Positions 20,359 through 26,937 of a stretch of 64,000 bases of DNA are shown here, piece after piece. Source of the DNA: Spinacia oleracea (Eukaryota > Streptophyta > Magnoliopsida > Caryophyllales > Amaranthaceae); contig NC_079487.1 of NCBI RefSeq assembly GCF_020520425.1, positions 88,355,141 through 88,419,140 of the forward strand, given 5' to 3'. A model generated the notes under the pieces. It saw only the letters and a program-made list of their open reading frames with translations, was not told the origin of the DNA and searched no databases. The position numbers and the translations under genes were made by a program. Position 1 is the stretch's first letter, and each line of letters opens with the position of its first letter.

Positions 20359-20948
20359 TACTCCCTCCGTTTCTTTTTGTTGTATCCGTTTCCTTTTTAG
20401 TCGTTTCATAATGTTGTATCCACTTAGAATCTTTCCATTTTTGGACATACTTTTTTTCCTAAAATACCCTTATATTTCAATCTAATAACCAAAAAACCTA
20501 AAGAATCTACCCATATTCCCACCTAATTTTCCCCACCCATAATATTTTATTCATTTAACCCACCCACCTCCCTTATTAAATTAATAAAACCCTAACGTCA
20601 CTCTCACCTCTCTCTCCTTATAACCCGTCCCTCTCACCCTCTCTCTCCTCATTCTCTTCGGATCCCTCTCTCCTCCTGTCTCCCTCTCTCTCCTCAAGAA
20701 ATCTCTCTGTTTCTCTAAAAACCCTAACCTTCTCCGCCCCTGTTCTTCGTTTTTTTTGGTGAGATCTCTCAGATCTTTGGGGTTTTCGCTCAAAATTGTT
20801 CTCAAACTTTAACCGGAACGACATTCCGGTGAGATCCCCTCTAGTTTTGTCCCCTTTGTCGTCCCAAATCCCGGTTGGTAATCGATTCTCTGGTGAAACT
20901 TTTTTGGGGATAAAATCGGAGTTTTATTAGGGTTTTATTAATTTCTTA

Positions 20949-22076
20949 ATGGGATCCTCTTCCTCCAAATATCTTCCGACTTATTCGGTTGGTACTTCTG
21001 GGCAACGAATTCCTGACTCAAACTGTGATTGGGGCTCGAAATGCATTTGTCCCAACAACGAGCACTCGTATTCTGGCGAGTATCTGAATAATTTGAGGTT
21101 GGCCCAGAAGGAGAACACGAGTACCCGAAATTATCTCAAAGCTTGGTTTGAGAAAATGGAAGTGGAGCCTGGTGAAGAGGTGGAGTCCAAATACGACGAT
21201 CGAGTCCCCACACCAGCAGATCTGAGATTCTTTGGAGGAGACGAATCTGATGAGGTATATTTCCTTATTTTTGGGTTTTTTTTCCTGATTTTTCGAGTTA
21301 ATTAGGGTTTACTCTGTTTTTGGGATTTTTTGTGTTTCTTGGAGAAAATCTGTGATTTTTGGTTGAAACGTAGGTTTTCTAATAAAATTAGGGTTACTCT
21401 GCATGTTCTGATTTTTTGAGATTTTTTGTGAATTTTAATGATTTTTTTTCATTTGTTGATGATTTTTGTGAATTGTTTTAGATTTAACATTGGTTCATTT
21501 TTTGTGATCATGCATGTCCCATAAATGTTTGATTTTTGTGTTAAATGATGAAGTTTTCGAATTGCATGTCAGAGATTCGTTGATAATTTTTGTTAAATGA
21601 TGAAGTTTTCTAATTGCATGTAAGAGATCCCTTGATTTATTTTGTTAAATGATAAATTTTCGAATTGCATGTCAGAGATCCCTTGATTTTTTTGGTTAAA
21701 TGATGAAGTTCATGAATTGCATGTTAGAGATCCCTTGATTTTTCTCGATTTTTATGAGTTTATTTAAATTGCATGTTGAATACCATGAATGTTGGTCTGT
21801 TTTGGTTGATTTGGATGTTCAATTCCATGATTACTTTGATGATGTTGTTCTTTGATCTTGTTAAGTTGATGTGAAATATATTAAACATATTTTATGTCCC
21901 CTCTTGATTGCAAGGAACCCAATCACTCTGATTCATTCGACCTATACTATGTGGGTGAGTGTGAGAACACAACTGCTGGTCCAGAGGTTTCTGATGGGCA
22001 ATGTTCGGTTTCGTCCCCAAACGTGAAGGAAGATGAAATAAAAAAAAAGCCACCTAAGGGTGTTGATGATGCTTAG
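20949..22076 (+). CDS. Accessory protein of the mariner element, unknown function
   Basis: Exons 20949-21254 and 21915-22076 join in phase across a GT-AG intron (GATGAG|GTATAT ... TTGCAAG|GAACCC) to give 155 residues. The protein starts MGSSSSKY, a possible N-myristoylation pattern (Gly2, Ser6). It has a short Cys cluster (Cys26, Cys32, Cys34), a helical RLAQKENTSTRNYLKAWFEK stretch at 50-69 and acidic segments, and ends with a Lys/Pro-rich tail. A CT-rich leader of about 370 bp and the left inverted repeat lie upstream. I do not recognise the family, and plant MLEs normally encode only the transposase. It could be a captured host gene or an element-specific helper. The 660-bp intron and matched reading phases suggest a real gene, but expression is unproven. 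Confidence 0.6.
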
Positions 22077-22262
22077 AGATAAGTGTGTCTTCTATAAACC
22101 CTCTTTTAATTATATTTGGATTGCTGGTTAGCTGTGGAGACATAAGGTGGAGTAGCCAACAACTGTGATCTGTTGTTGGCAAGGGGTGTTGTTGTTTTGT
22201 TGATGATGTGATAGGGTTTGGAGTGTATTCATGTCCTCTATTATTGCCTTGTTGCTTGAAAC

Positions 22263-22335
22263 ATGTTGCCTTGTTGATTGATGAATGTTGCCTTGTTGAT
22301 TGATGAATGTTGCCTTGTTGATTGATGAATGTTGC
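22263..22335 (+). repeat. 22-bp tandem repeat in the mariner element
   Basis: About three copies of GTTGCCTTGTTGATTGATGAAT stand head to tail, with partial copies on either side. Related TTGCCTTG words are scattered through the following 2 kb of the element. Confidence 0.85.
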
Positions 22336-22546
22336 CTTGTGTGCTTGCTGATTTAATAATGTTGCCTGTTGAAACTGTCATATGTTTGCTGGTTGATTAG
22401 TGTTGCCTTGAGAGGGGTGAAAGCATATGGGATGGGTTTATGAATAAAATTTTAACATGTGATTGGAAAAAAACAGTTTCATTAAAGTCCCCTCTTATTG
22501 TTTGTCTTTCCTGAATGCTTGGTCTGTGATGTTAGGGTTTGAATGA

Positions 22547-22700
22547 GGTCTATGATGAGTCTTTCAGTGCTGAGAAACTATCCATGTTTCATAAACCACA
22601 GTGCGCCATTAGCATCCAGCCGTAGGCTGTATGAGGCTTTTGTGTGCTAATGGTTTGTGAACATGGTGTGGTTCAATGAAGCTTGGGGACATCTGAGACC
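22547..22700 (+). ncRNA. Foldback unit A1, C/D-box-like candidate small RNA
   Basis: The unit begins with GGTC, a T and ATGATGA (box C-like, 22552-22558). It ends with CTGA (box D-like, 22693-22696) followed directly by GACC, which pairs with the opening GGTC. Inside, a 5' arm (GAAACTATCCATGTTTCATA, from 22574) pairs imperfectly with the 3' arm (TGTGAACATGGTGTGGTTC). GCTTGGGGACAT stands just before the box D-like CTGA, as a guide would. Units A2 and A3 share ends and loop but differ in the arms. It could be a box C/D RNA, a MIRNA-like precursor or a structural element. No expression evidence is available. Confidence 0.4.
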
Positions 22701-22767
22701 AAATTTAACATGATGATGAGTCTTTCATATGCTGAGTCTTTCATATGCTGAGAAACAATTCAAGTTA

Positions 22768-22916
22768 CATCGATGATGAGTCTTTCATATGCTGAGAAAC
22801 AATTCAAGTTACCTACACTCACTCGTGCTGCCATTAGTATCAGTGATGATGCTTCTCAGGCGCTAAGTGTGTGTAGGTTGAATTTGTTTCAATGATGCTT
22901 GGGGACATCTGAGATG
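22768..22916 (+). ncRNA. Foldback unit A2, C/D-box-like candidate small RNA
   Basis: Terminal CATC (22768-22771) pairs with GATG (22913-22916). ATGATGA follows the first and CTGA precedes the second. An internal TGCTGAG (D'-like) and a GTGATGATG (C'-like) are also present. The arms GAAACAATTCAAGTTACCTA and TAGGTTGAATTTGTTTC form a strong stem. The 5' arm region is partly duplicated just upstream (22711-22767), a half unit without its partner arm. Confidence 0.4.
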
Positions 22917-22945
22917 AATTTTGATGTCATGCATGTTTTACTTTT

Positions 22946-23046
22946 GTTAGTTAGGTGGTCCTTCAAAGGGGATTGACTTATTTTTAAATATCCAATGCGA
23001 TAGTTCACAATTTGTCAATTCCCTTTGGAAGGACCACCATGACACT
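22946..23046. repeat. Foldback B1 in the mariner element
   Basis: Near-perfect arms GGTGGTCCTTCAAAGGGGAT (from 22954, continuing to 22977) and ATTCCCTTTGGAAGGACCACC (ending 23038) are separated by about 36 bp. The stem length and few mismatches resemble a plant microRNA precursor or a very small MITE. No TSD was identified. Confidence 0.6.
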
Positions 23047-23119
23047 TAAACAACATGTTTGATTGTGGTGTTAATGATAATCAATGATGTTAAAGGTTGA
23101 TATCCTGAGATTTATGTTT

Positions 23120-23234
23120 CAATACTTGTCCTTTAACTCCTTTTGTCGAATGGAGTGATTGTCATTTCACATGATCAGTAGTGAATATCAATCATTCCGT
23201 TCGGCAAAAGGATGTTAAAGTTGAGAAAATATTG
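23120..23234. repeat. Foldback B2 in the mariner element
   Basis: Arms of about 50 bp pair across a 10-bp loop: 23120-23170 (with CTCCTTTTGTCGAATGGAGT) and 23181-23234 (with ATTCCGTTCGGCAAAAGGAT). It is related in sequence to foldback B5 (shared AATGGAGTGA and TTAAAG ends), so the two are diverged copies. Confidence 0.6.
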
Positions 23235-23414
23235 ATACAATAGATCAATGATGCTATTCAACAACTCTGAGATTGGAACCCTAATGTTTGCTAATGTCCC
23301 ATGTGTGAGTTTGGTCATTGTTAAAATTTGGAAACATACTACATATATGCTGTAAATCAACCTATCTGAGATTGTTGTGCCTTGTCCATTGCTGCCTTGT
23401 TATTTGTTTTGAGT

Positions 23415-23559
23415 CATCTATGATGAGTCTTCATTTGCTGACACTCAAACCCTATATTCCATTAACACTCATGCGCCATTAGCATGAATAATGCTTCTCA
23501 GGAGCTAAGTGTTGGTGGATGGGGTTTGTGTGAGGGATGCTTGGGGACATTCTGAGATG
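23415..23559 (+). ncRNA. Foldback unit A3, C/D-box-like candidate small RNA
   Basis: Same architecture as A1 and A2: CATC (23415-23418), ATGATGA (23420-23426), CTGA (23552-23555) and GATG (23556-23559). The inner arms ACACTCAAACCCTATATTCC and GGATGGGGTTTGTGTGAG differ from those of A1 and A2 yet remain complementary to each other. The loop-proximal CGCCATTAGCAT and GCTTCTCAGGAGCTAAGTG are conserved with A2. Confidence 0.4.
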
Positions 23560-23644
23560 GTTGTGTGTACTTGCTTCTATGTACTTGATGCCTTCTTCTT
23601 CATGCTTTGTTCAATGATGAATTGGTTTAAGCATATCGAATTTT

Positions 23645-23745
23645 ACTTTTGTTGACGCATCGGTATCTAGGTGGTAAGATTTTCCATCTGAAAATGATGT
23701 GATATGCATTCTTTCCACTTAGATGCCGATGTGTTTAGAGAAGTG
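23645..23745. repeat. Foldback B3 in the mariner element
   Basis: The arms GACGCATCGGTATCTAGGTGG (from 23654) and CCACTTAGATGCCGATGTG (ending about 23733) pair around a TCTGAAAATGATGTGATAT loop. B4 repeats the same design with different arm sequence. Confidence 0.6.
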
Positions 23746-23858
23746 ATTTTGCATATGACTTTCTAAGTATGTTGTAAGTAAATACCTTGCCTTTGCTGCC
23801 TTGCTCATGGCCTTGTTTTTTTGAGTTGTTCAATGATGAAATGATTTAGTAACTCGAA

Positions 23859-23966
23859 TATTACATCTTTTGACGCATCGGTTTCAAAATGGGAATAAAT
23901 TCCATCTGAAAATGATGTGATATTCATTCTTTCCATTTTGAAGCTGATGTGTTTAGAGTTGTGATT
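23859..23966. repeat. Foldback B4 in the mariner element
   Basis: The arms GACGCATCGGTTTCAAAATGG and CCATTTTGAAGCTGATGTG surround the same TCTGAAAATGATGTGATAT loop as B3. Where B3 reads TATCTAGGTGG, B4 reads TTTCAAAATGG. The opposite arm has changed to match, so pairing is kept. Confidence 0.6.
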
Positions 23967-23978
23967 TTGCATGTCCTG

Positions 23979-24090
23979 AGTTTCCTACACTTTTAGTATC
24001 CTCTGTCAAATGGAGTGACTTTCCTTTCCCATTTCTGTTTGTGTTAGTCATTCACTCCATTTGGGAGGAGGATATTAAAGTTTAGGATTC
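23979..24090. repeat. Foldback B5 in the mariner element
   Basis: The arms contain TAGTATCCTCTGTCAAATGG (5') and CCATTTGGGAGGAGGATATT (3') and pair over about 45 bp with few mismatches. It is a diverged relative of B2. Confidence 0.6.
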
Positions 24091-24313
24091 AATGATGATG
24101 AACACATACAAACTGAGAACAACATGTCCCCATGCTTTGCCTTGGCTTGAAAATGAATTCATGTGTTGCCTTGAAAACATAAAGTTGTCCCCTTAATGGT
24201 TTAAGGAATGGCTGACTCATTAAATTGGTGTTTTGTGTTTCAATTACAACTACAAATAAGAAACATGATTGTGAATATGATGAACAAAAACTAAACTATG
24301 ATTGTGATAACCT

Positions 24314-24531
24314 AGTTATTGTTGCCTTGTTGATGCTGTCTTGTTCATATTGCCTTGTGCATTGCTGCCTAGTTATTGTTGCCTGGTTGATGCTGTCTTG
24401 TTCATATTGCCTTGTGCATTGTTGCCTTATGATTTTGACTTATCCTGAAATCATATGTTAATATGCAATGTACATGTTCCCTTATGATTTTGAATAATCC
24501 TGAAATCATATGTTAATATGCAATGTACATG
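24314..24531 (+). repeat. Two adjacent tandem duplications in the mariner element
   Basis: A 57-bp unit is repeated at 24314-24370 and 24371-24427 (AGTTATTGTTGCCT starts). A 55-bp unit follows at 24426-24480 and 24481-24531 (CTTATGATTTTGA starts). The copies are nearly identical, so the duplications are recent. They lie downstream of both convergent genes. Confidence 0.85.
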
Positions 24532-24749
24532 AATAACTACAAATATGTGAGTATGATGAACAAAAACTAAAGATTAACAACAACAAATTGATTCATTCAT
24601 TCTTCCAGTTGATATGTTGCTTCCAAAATGTTTTAAATACATGTGATGCTTTCATTCAAGCTTACAAAAGTGACATTTTGTTTGCTCTTGTAACTTTTAA
24701 AACATGTTCCCAAAACACAAAAAGTAATCTCTCGTTCTTGCTCTATACT

Positions 24750-26396
24750 TCACTGATTTGCTCTCCATTCATCAACAAGTTGTTTGCATTCATTCACAGC
24801 CCACCTTGGGGCCTTAACTTGTTCTGGCAGATTCCCCTCATCTTCTAAAATCTTTTTCTTGTTGTGTGGGAGTTGGTAGTCATTGTCCCCCTTGTGTTTC
24901 AAAATTTCATTTCCAACATATTGAAGTGACATCCACACATTAGATAGAGTCTTTGCATGCAGTTCATTATATGCCTCAGTCACAGCACCACTTAAATCTT
25001 CAACTGTTTTAGGCATCTTTTTGTGCATTAGTGATTGAATTGACCTAAAGAACCCCAAGTCTAATATGTTACAATCTGGACTGTTTGCTGGCTGCTGAGT
25101 CAATATCAATGTGAAGCCATCTTGCTTGTAATGTTGCTGCCATTCTTGATCATTTTGCAAAATGTGTGCCTTTGCATTGTCTTGAATGATGTATATCACC
25201 CTTTCCCCCTCATGTGGTGGCCATTTCTCTTTAATTGCTGGGATTAGGTAGTTGATTAGCATGGCCCTAGTTGCAATCTGATTAACTGACTTGATTGGTT
25301 TAGTCTCAATTGTCCCCTTGACTCTATTTTTGGATGTTCTCTTTGCTGCCACTGCATCTGTGAATGGAAATATACCAAGTTTCCCATCCCACTCACACTG
25401 CCCATCTTGTCCCCATCTTGGCCTTGCTACTGCTGCCATAAACATGAACTTTGGAATCTTAGTTCTTGATTTTCCCTTCCTGTGTGGAAATGGTTCATTG
25501 TTTGCTAAATAAACTCTTTGACTTTTTTGTGTAAGATAGAACCATTTCTCATCGATGTGAATGAAATCATACATGCTGTAATATGTGGGATCATTTGGTA
25601 TTGAGTAGTCCATTAAGAGACCAAGTACCCACTTCATCCTTGCCATCTTGCATTCTTCTGAAATGCCTGGATTCAATGGACTTGAATGTGGTTTTATCTG
25701 TTTTCTTTTCACCATTCTCCAAATTGTTGTGGGACTCAAATTGAGCATCCTTGCTAGATCAATAATGGTTGTTCTATCCCCCATGGCTATGGAGGCTATA
25801 GACTCATATGTTACTTGAATTCTCTTCCTCCCACAGTTGTGATATTTGCTATCATAGAAATACGAATCCATGGCTGCCTTATGTGCCAATGCTCTCTGCC
25901 ATATTAGTCTAATTGTCTTCCTTGTGTAACCAAACTTTATAACAGCCTGCCTATTTGTCCCATGAATGAGTTCATCTGAATGCTTTTTTTTTCTTAAGAG
26001 AAGGAACAACAAGATTTCCAACCTTAATTCGTTGTTAATCCTTGGGGTTCTAGGCTTATGATGATTTTGCTCTGTTTCTGTTTGATGAATTGGAGATGGT
26101 GGGAACTTTTGTTGTGTTGGCATGTTCAAATCAAACAAAAATGGAACTGAGTGGTTATCTGATATACCTGATGTATGCTGTGGTCCCACTTCACATTCTT
26201 GTGCATATTCTTGTCCCACTTCATTCAGATCTGGCAATTGTTGATTTTGCTCAAAGTCCCCTATTTGATGAGCATTTACTTCACTTACAGCATTTTGGGT
26301 TGCTTCATCATCATCATAATCTGAATCAGAGTTCGTGCCGTCTCCTTCATCATCGGAAAAACCGAGGAACTCGTCCTCCTCTTGATCTGAAGCCAT
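24750..26396 (-). CDS. Mariner-like transposase (DD39D)
   Basis: A single uninterrupted frame of 548 residues starts at the ATG at 26396, about 540 bp inside the right inverted repeat. The first 35 residues are acidic. Two DNA-binding regions follow: one near 120-185 (NNELRLEILLFLLLRKKK onward), and a helix-turn-helix near 195-232 (TIIDLARMLNLSPTTIWRMV). The catalytic core shows HIDEKWF (Asp282), IIQDNAKAH (Asp406) and NSPDCNILDLGFF (Asp446). The spacing of 39 residues between the last two gives the plant MLE signature DD39D. All three acidic residues are present and no stop or frameshift is seen, so the enzyme may be functional. Transposases of this group cut and paste at TA and can also mobilise Stowaway MITEs. 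Confidence 0.95.
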   Translation of the reverse strand: MASDQEEDEFLGFSDDEGDGTNSDSDYDDDEATQNAVSEVNAHQIGDFEQNQQLPDLNEVGQEYAQECEVGPQHTSGISDNHSVPFLFDLNMPTQQKFPPSPIHQTETEQNHHKPRTPRINNELRLEILLFLLLRKKKHSDELIHGTNRQAVIKFGYTRKTIRLIWQRALAHKAAMDSYFYDSKYHNCGRKRIQVTYESIASIAMGDRTTIIDLARMLNLSPTTIWRMVKRKQIKPHSSPLNPGISEECKMARMKWVLGLLMDYSIPNDPTYYSMYDFIHIDEKWFYLTQKSQRVYLANNEPFPHRKGKSRTKIPKFMFMAAVARPRWGQDGQCEWDGKLGIFPFTDAVAAKRTSKNRVKGTIETKPIKSVNQIATRAMLINYLIPAIKEKWPPHEGERVIYIIQDNAKAHILQNDQEWQQHYKQDGFTLILTQQPANSPDCNILDLGFFRSIQSLMHKKMPKTVEDLSGAVTEAYNELHAKTLSNVWMSLQYVGNEILKHKGDNDYQLPHNKKKILEDEGNLPEQVKAPRWAVNECKQLVDEWRANQ

Positions 26397-26937
26397 TAAT
26401 GTCCCCTTGCTGATTAATTGTAGTGCATTTATTGCCTTTGGTTTTTTGTTGTTGTAACTGATATTAAAACAGTTGGAATTTATGAGGGTTTTTGGGTAGA
26501 AATTGTCCCCTATTTATAAAGGGTGGTAAATGTATAAAGTTTGGAGGGAAAACTTTTTGGTAAATTTCTGTTTTTGGAGGGAAGTGTAAAAAGGGAAGTG
26601 GACTTTCCCAATTTGGGAAGTCTTCCCTCCGTTTTTTTCTGTTGCTGTAATCTCATTGGATGAAATAAATCCACCTCATGTACTTTGGTCCCCACTTCAA
26701 TCAGATTTTTTCTGATTTTTGATTAATTAAATGAAAATATCCCCTTTCCCATAATTCTTTAATATTTTCTCTCTCCTTACTTTAATCTTTAAAAAAGAAT
26801 CTCTTACACATTCTTACACACAATCATTTCTCTTACACCCAATCATTACACTTATACCCATACAAACCAAGATTCTATTTTTCTTAAAAACCCCCCAAGA
26901 TTCCAAATGGATACAACATTTAGAAATGGAGGGAGTA

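Follow-up and report, generated by a model that had tools for sequence, protein, structure and literature searches.

A mariner-like element of spinach carries an array of long foldbacks, four of which have a box C/D-like layout

Mariner is the textbook minimal transposon, made of its ends and a transposase. What, then, could an array of eight long foldbacks be for inside such an element? The question is raised by a 64,000-nucleotide stretch of the Spinacia oleracea genome (contig NC_079487.1, positions 88,355,141 to 88,419,140; hereafter the window), in which foldbacks A1 to A3 and B1 to B5 occupy positions 22547-24090 of a mariner-like element. The initial annotation had described three A units and five B hairpins carried as cargo by a mariner element. 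Both descriptions hold, the 6575-bp element having a TA duplication, inverted ends, and a DD39D-type transposase; what the annotation had missed is that the constant ends of A1, A2, A3, and B2 are box C/D motifs. We propose that these four units are probably C/D-like RNAs bound by host proteins, and that the element most likely carries, on the strand of its second gene (open reading frame 1, ORF1), a predicted non-coding module in which C/D-like units are interleaved with plain long hairpins.

Each unit was folded alone (for B2, the hairpin only) and compared with 200 dinucleotide shuffles. The z-scores were −3.3, −3.1, and −4.9 for A1, A2, and A3, and −8.9, −10.5, −8.5, −8.1, and −7.1 for B1 to B5; 1 of 200 shuffles folded as well as A2 and none as well as the other seven units. 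Strong folding in all eight foldbacks would suit a cluster of microRNA (MIRNA) or small interfering RNA (siRNA) hairpins, to which the array had been likened, with the foldbacks as Dicer-like substrates acting against host or element transcripts and the constant ends as processing signals or relics of duplication. Such a cluster does not predict the arrangement seen in A1, A2, A3, and B2, where a terminal stem, box C, a spacer, box D', a hairpin, box C', a second spacer, and box D follow one another in this order. The constant ends read as a 4-bp stem, a 3-nt bulge (usually NRT), the GATG of box C, 12-15 nt, and the CTGA of D'; the hairpin stem opens at the base after this CTGA and closes 3 nt before the GATG of C', after which come 11-13 nt, the CTGA of D, and the second strand of the terminal stem (spacer lengths in the window units counted from GATG). 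NRTGATG and CTGA form the signature of the RNA kink-turn, and the spacing is that of C/D and C'/D' kink-turns; a hairpin that starts right after D' and ends 3 nt before the C' GATG is placed as a C'/D' kink-turn requires. MIRNA precursors need neither the ordered boxes nor the kink-turn-like stems and short spacers.

A scan that demanded all boxes in order, with some leeway in C', found four full C-D'-C'-D layouts in the window element; its minus strand and 20 dinucleotide shuffles gave none. Applied to 20 loci, the scan returned 1-6 layouts (overlapping alternatives counted) in 15 and none in L009, L014, L015, L016, and L025; L015 and L025 still carry A units according to a covariance model, the box C of the aligned units there being ATGACG. 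The terminal stems vary among the window units (Table 1). Across an alignment of 17 A units, CTGA is invariant at both D' and D, and 14 units have RTGATGA as box C. The terminal stem of 4 bp shows pairing in 98.5% of cells; GC-CG and AU-GU-GC changes occur there, and five units have GU at one of its pairs. The first pair of the hairpin is standard in all 17 A units and in 9 of 9 B2-type units. Conservation in the A units is highest in the boxes and in the near-invariant spacer CTTGGGGACAT(T) that precedes the final CTGA, rather than in a single stem arm. These features also bear on the possibility that the units act as DNA, as extruded hairpins or clustered motifs bound in transposition by the transposase or a host factor, an idea that gains from their position inside a DNA transposon and from an oriented TGTCCC motif that is also scattered across the element. 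The signature is one of RNA kink-turns, the full layout is confined to one strand, GU pairs are tolerated, and plant mariner elements transpose with terminal repeats and transposase; we consider action as DNA very unlikely.

According to the initial annotation, the opposite arms of related units have changed to match each other, implying that pairing rather than sequence is kept. We examined this claim on the 17 A units and nine B2-type units against three nulls, namely partners shuffled (500 shuffles), partners slid, and 500 tree simulations. In the A units, 89.3% of cells were paired, compared to 75.9% with shuffled and 30-46% with slid partners; both sides had changed at 18 of 27 pairs, and double-change cells numbered 60 (19.8 shuffled, 6-15 slid). 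The B2-type units gave 93.2% of cells paired (85.1% shuffled), change on both sides at 16 of 46 pairs, and 38 double-change cells (14.7 shuffled, 3-8 slid); the number of further pair types was less extreme in this set, being equalled by 7 of 500 shuffles. For the tree null, a paired ancestor was evolved along a FastTree tree with alignment-derived site rates and no pairing constraint (15 A and 8 B sequences, RNAalifold structure). The observed double-change cells, 37 in A and 28 in B, compare with simulated means of 7.7 and 5.3, and neither count was reached in 500 simulations. Pairing with non-cognate arms was clearly worse in 12 A units (p = 5e-5; own arm best in 5 of 12), a set that includes the mis-set unit L028 2911, which begins at a duplicated box. 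Pairing is weaker in the 11-bp A stem beside D'/C' (78.9% of cells). Between the paralogues B3 and B4, matched changes on both sides of the arms were judged by eye. The covariation that had been noticed by inspection thus extends to genome copies of the A and B2-type units, and these comparisons indicate that the pairing of their arms is kept by selection while the sequence changes. The alternative offered at the time, that every unit began as an inverted duplication of a different sequence, is disfavored for the A units: by alignment reading, counterparts of the A1, A2, and A3 types recur in diverged elements, so that the A arms appear to have diverged by matched change.

The wider distribution of the array was explored in the 894 Mb of the genome (242 contigs). 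The A-unit word TGATGAGTCTTTCA occurs at 490 places, and its reversed control at 3. Forty loci were examined, drawn (L035 excepted) from the first 100 of these places; because they were picked by the A-unit word, they do not measure the share of elements without an array. A transposase was found in 30 of the 40, with 45.8-99.7% identity in the first-listed piece. The covariance model, built from the 17 A units (window and 11 loci, whose sequences match by construction), gave 98 matches of at least 100 bits in the window and in 33 of the 40 loci, including all 30 with a transposase. L025, L030, and L032 have the array and no transposase in the stretch examined; L009, L014, L016, L034, L035, L036, and L047, loci without a transposase, gave no match. 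An A-like unit of reduced length, about 67 nt (L013 2535-2601 and counterparts), scored 26.9 bits with the A model and was seen at 16 places, mostly in the L013 group.

The A words of contig C1 are fully listed, and the transposases there were found independently of the array; of the 16 transposase genes listed for this contig (73-100% identical), each has an A-unit motif at most 6 kb away. Conversely, a listed transposase lies within this distance of 18 of 34 clusters of at least two A words, and of 1 of 15 single A words. A units are also present in three elements whose transposase is only 46-58% identical to that of the window. Compared with the L013 family, the window transposase has a nonsynonymous divergence (dN) of 0.18 and a synonymous divergence (dS) of 1.22 (dN/dS 0.15), so synonymous sites are near saturation and the array is still kept. 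At the other end of the scale, four recent copies that were examined are 99.4-99.5% identical across 3-5 kb, and the best 20 listed transposase matches are 99-100% identical, 18 of them without an internal stop. The copies of the element are, by these identities, partly recent, pointing to recent spread of array-carrying copies. Relatives were also sought in bacterial and viral collections, and none was found there.

Age bears on a further explanation, a host small nucleolar RNA (snoRNA) cluster that was captured and passively kept as duplicated fragments without present function. Telo-box motifs are typical of plant snoRNA and ribosomal-protein promoters, and the telo-box core AACCCTA stands 5' of the array on the + strand in 14 of 15 copies; in 13 of 15 it also occurs on the opposite strand, counts given without a computed chance level. 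Plant snoRNA genes are often clustered, as is also stated in PMC12045711. Passive sequence, however, would not hold its pairing through matched change at a synonymous divergence above 1, and no snoRNA family reached its Rfam gathering score in the window, which together make passive capture most improbable.

What of the hairpins without the C/D layout? The arms of B1 are near-identical in six copies (the window, L018, L021, L029, L032, and L039) and its loop varies, as in MIRNA genes, and the arms of B3 and B4 are little changed in a wider copy set that includes the L011 group. Because their arms change so little between copies, B1, B3, and B4 could be small-RNA precursors, and to this extent the likeness to MIRNA or siRNA loci stands; it does not carry over to the array as a whole, four units of which have the C/D layout. 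Rfam gave weak matches to several MIR families, every one far under its gathering score. The complement of the B1 3' arm (22950-23043) holds TCCAAAGGGA, which we take to be common to miR393 (17.4 bits in Rfam, cut-off 60). The genome has 58 exact occurrences of a 22-nt B1 arm (reversed control 0), B1 being present in the subgroup of the window and in L029 and L032. This exact arm lies near 29 of the 35 first listed transposases and near 0 of 43 in the listed group of 73-75% identity, a result that rules out B1 as a universal part of the element and also speaks against the small-RNA explanation. An origin of B1 from a nested miniature inverted-repeat transposable element was checked as well: of the 58 B1 copies, 29 are at most 6 kb away from a listed transposase match (at least 79 in all). 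Comparison of the array arms with the rest of the window, a check proposed earlier with the transposase gene in mind, gave no exact match longer than 13 nt outside the array (host transcripts elsewhere were unsearched), and the arms were rejected as copies of other window sequence. For the array as a whole, we regard a MIRNA or siRNA cluster as unlikely.

Several observations weigh against C/D-like RNAs. Four of the eight foldbacks (B1, B3, B4, and B5) are without the full layout, and C' is an exact RTGATG in only 9 of the 17 A units. The terminal stem is weaker in B2-type units (86.1% of cells paired), and in six of them, over the first 30 nt, non-cognate arms did not pair significantly worse (p = 0.17). 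At the center of B2-type units, the spacers (GTTGAT/ATCAAC type) could pair with each other in 90.7% of cells, with change on both sides at 0 pairs, so this helix is not proven. A hairpin of 87-139 nt between D' and C' is long for C/D snoRNAs. The Rfam scan of the window returned no family at its gathering score, and when 12 spacers were compared with 18S ribosomal RNA (rRNA) none clearly beat its shuffles (5-57 of 60 as good, the single best spacer being equalled by 5 of 60), the A spacer CTTGGGGACAT(T) having no 18S match. The body of 25S rRNA was not found: one pattern had a single exact match, at the end of a contig, and another had none. Finally, 16 of the 34 A-motif clusters have none of the listed transposases (at least 79) within 6 kb, and every copy compared comes from one genome.

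The anatomy, conservation, and selected pairing of the units rest on sequence; from these we infer their transcription, protein binding, and role. The units would be transcribed from the + strand, 3' of ORF1, and their kink-turns would be bound by the host C/D core proteins SNU13/15.5K, NOP56/NOP58, and fibrillarin, so that several units per transcript might assemble host C/D proteins. The resulting particles could stabilize the element RNA or localize it to the nucleolus or Cajal body; alternatively, the units may be cut out as stable small RNAs. We lean toward such a scaffold or stabilizing role over the classical role of an rRNA guide, since none of the spacers is distinguished by its match to 18S rRNA and since the B2-type spacers are mutually pairable. 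Taken alone, a stabilizing or localizing role is a tentative suggestion and on balance doubtful, somewhat more so because the central B2-type helix shows no change on both sides of a pair.

A guide role directed at the element itself was considered from the word TGTCCC/GTCCCC, the complement of the A spacer, which is among the most over-represented + strand words and ranks first in the window element, L013, and L019 and fifth and seventh in L024. TGTCCC is found 14 times in the window element (2.7 expected), 13 times in L013 (2.9), 23 times in L019 (4.4), and 10-12 times in L015, L024, L025, and L031 (1.3-3.0), counts that were unreached by 300 Markov sequences per element (seven elements, spans set by eye). 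GGGACA occurs 0-1 times per element outside the box modules, to which this complement is thus nearly confined. The TGTCCC sites are spread over spacers and the two genes, with all three reading frames of the transposase gene represented, and their positions mostly differ between elements. The complement of the D' spacer of the A units is not enriched in the element; that of the B D spacer (GTTGAT) occurs 15 times versus 6.6 expected in the window element, with weaker excess in four others and no enrichment in L013 or L015. The TGTCCC enrichment is compatible with a guide-target relation rather than proof of one, since the T-rich 3' flanks of the sites do not lengthen the complementarity to the A spacer and a protein-binding word would look similar.

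On the guide interpretation, the element would be a eukaryotic DNA transposon with its own box C/D guide array, whose spacer CUUGGGGACAU(U) would find UGUCCC(C/U): host NOP56/58-fibrillarin particles with A units would target this word on the + strand RNA of the element and thereby mark, protect, or silence it. If true, it would provide a eukaryotic counterpart of the C/D-type arrays on prokaryotic mobile elements. We judge it quite unlikely, its weak point being that 66 of the 94 sites match the spacer at just 6-7 bases; the other 28 match at 8 or more, 5 of these at 10-11. A same-sense likeness of the A spacer GGGGACAU (22682-22692) to the 5' stem of the U6 small nuclear RNA of plants is presumably due to chance.

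Among known systems, the units come closest to the box C/D snoRNAs of plant polycistronic clusters, with which they share the terminal stem, box order, kink-turn-like geometry, spacers of near-guide length, and tandem arrangement; they differ in their location within a mariner element, in the long D'-C' hairpin, and in having neither an 18S target nor an Rfam family at gathering score. Tandem long hairpins are likewise found in plant MIRNA clusters and inverted-repeat siRNA loci, and B1, B3, and B4 share their conserved arms, whereas half of the eight units have C/D boxes and spacers, the A and B2 arms change in step with no single conserved arm, and no known MIR family was matched in Rfam at gathering score, the best scores being far under it. 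Other plant mariner-like elements include Vulmar1, Soymar1, and Osmar. The carrot elements Dcmar1-11 share the TA duplication, Stowaway-type ends, and DD39D transposase, although they measure 1.9-4.9 kb (6.6 kb here), and in the text available of their description neither a second gene like ORF1 nor an RNA array is mentioned (PMC6881990). Some TIGR arrays use stem-loops, but TIGR arrays and IS110 bridge RNAs are, according to PMC12045711, prokaryotic, with their own Nop-domain protein and without snoRNA K-turns. The transposase here is instead a DDD enzyme, and neither it nor ORF1 has a Nop-family match in Pfam, remoter similarity lying outside that search.

The initial annotation knew of no published description of such mariner cargo, and our literature search likewise found none for a C/D-like or hairpin array, a weak absence given that the sources were mostly open-access. 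Clustered C/D RNAs and mariner elements are each known; as far as we searched, their old and selected combination would be new. If C/D-like RNAs are indeed encoded here, a cut-and-paste transposon would make structured RNAs using host small nucleolar ribonucleoprotein components, which would allow tests of the ways in which plant transposons evade or exploit RNA-based control and would suggest a source of new snoRNAs entering genomes.

Table 1. Coordinates of the element, its genes, the foldback units, and the GTCCCC sites within the window.
Feature	Position	Strand	Description
Mariner-like element	20361-26935		6575 bp; TA target duplication at 20359-20360 and 26936-26937
ORF1 exon 1	20949-21254	+	CDxGxxC...H.Y..EY motif; splice sites inferred from sequence
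ORF1 exon 2	21915-22076	+	stop at 22074-22076; array downstream on the same strand
A1	22547-22700	+	stem GGTC/GACC 22547-22550/22697-22700; C 22551-22558; D' 22570-22573
A1, 3' part		+	hairpin, then C' from 22675 (AATGAAG), D 22693-22696
A2	22768-22916	+	stem CATC/GATG; C from 22772; D' 22792-22795; C' from 22891; D 22909-22912
B1	22947-23046	+	long hairpin without C/D boxes
B2	23079-23274	+	stem AATC/GATT; C from 23083; D' 23105-23108; C' from 23247; D 23267-23270; long hairpin
A3	23415-23559	+	stem CATC/GATG; C from 23419; D' 23438-23441; D 23552-23555
A3 C'		+	degenerate AGGGATG, from 23533
B3	23640-23755	+	long hairpin; box-C-like AATGATGA just before; no D'
B4	23857-23972	+	B3 paralogue, 82% over 128 nt
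B5	23980-24090	+	long hairpin; partial box-like motifs at flanks, full C/D layout absent
Transposase gene	24750-26396	-	548 aa; DD39D-type triad; convergent to ORF1 and array
GTCCCC	20849, 21204, 21896, 22013, 22487, 24126, 24187, 24885, 25312, 25409, 26256, 26401, 26505, 26688	+	

The element itself has the features of the mariner-like class, with TA at both flanks, inverted ends that start CTCCCTCC (26 of 32 terminal bases identical), and the DD39D-type transposase. In the triad, 34 residues separate D2 from the D of NSPD; the spacing becomes 39 with the D of LD, which lies five residues farther along. The transposase had no match among solved structures. ORF1, the second gene, would encode 155 aa from two exons (splicing inferred) and had no match in Pfam. 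A diverged relative occupies the same position in L019 (29% identity) and L024 (28%), with 15 invariant columns, and ORF1-like frames are also present in L031 and L025; for exon 1, dN/dS was 0.41 relative to L029 and 0.08 relative to L032. Telo-box-like AAACCCTAA motifs lie around 20588 and 20720, close to the ORF1 start. Tandem repeats of about 52 bp were seen in the ORF1 intron (21477-21786) and of 22 bp (TTGCCTTGTTGATTGATGAATG) 3' of ORF1 (22244-22410), and TGCCTTG occurs in the element 14 times on the + strand and 0 times on the - strand.
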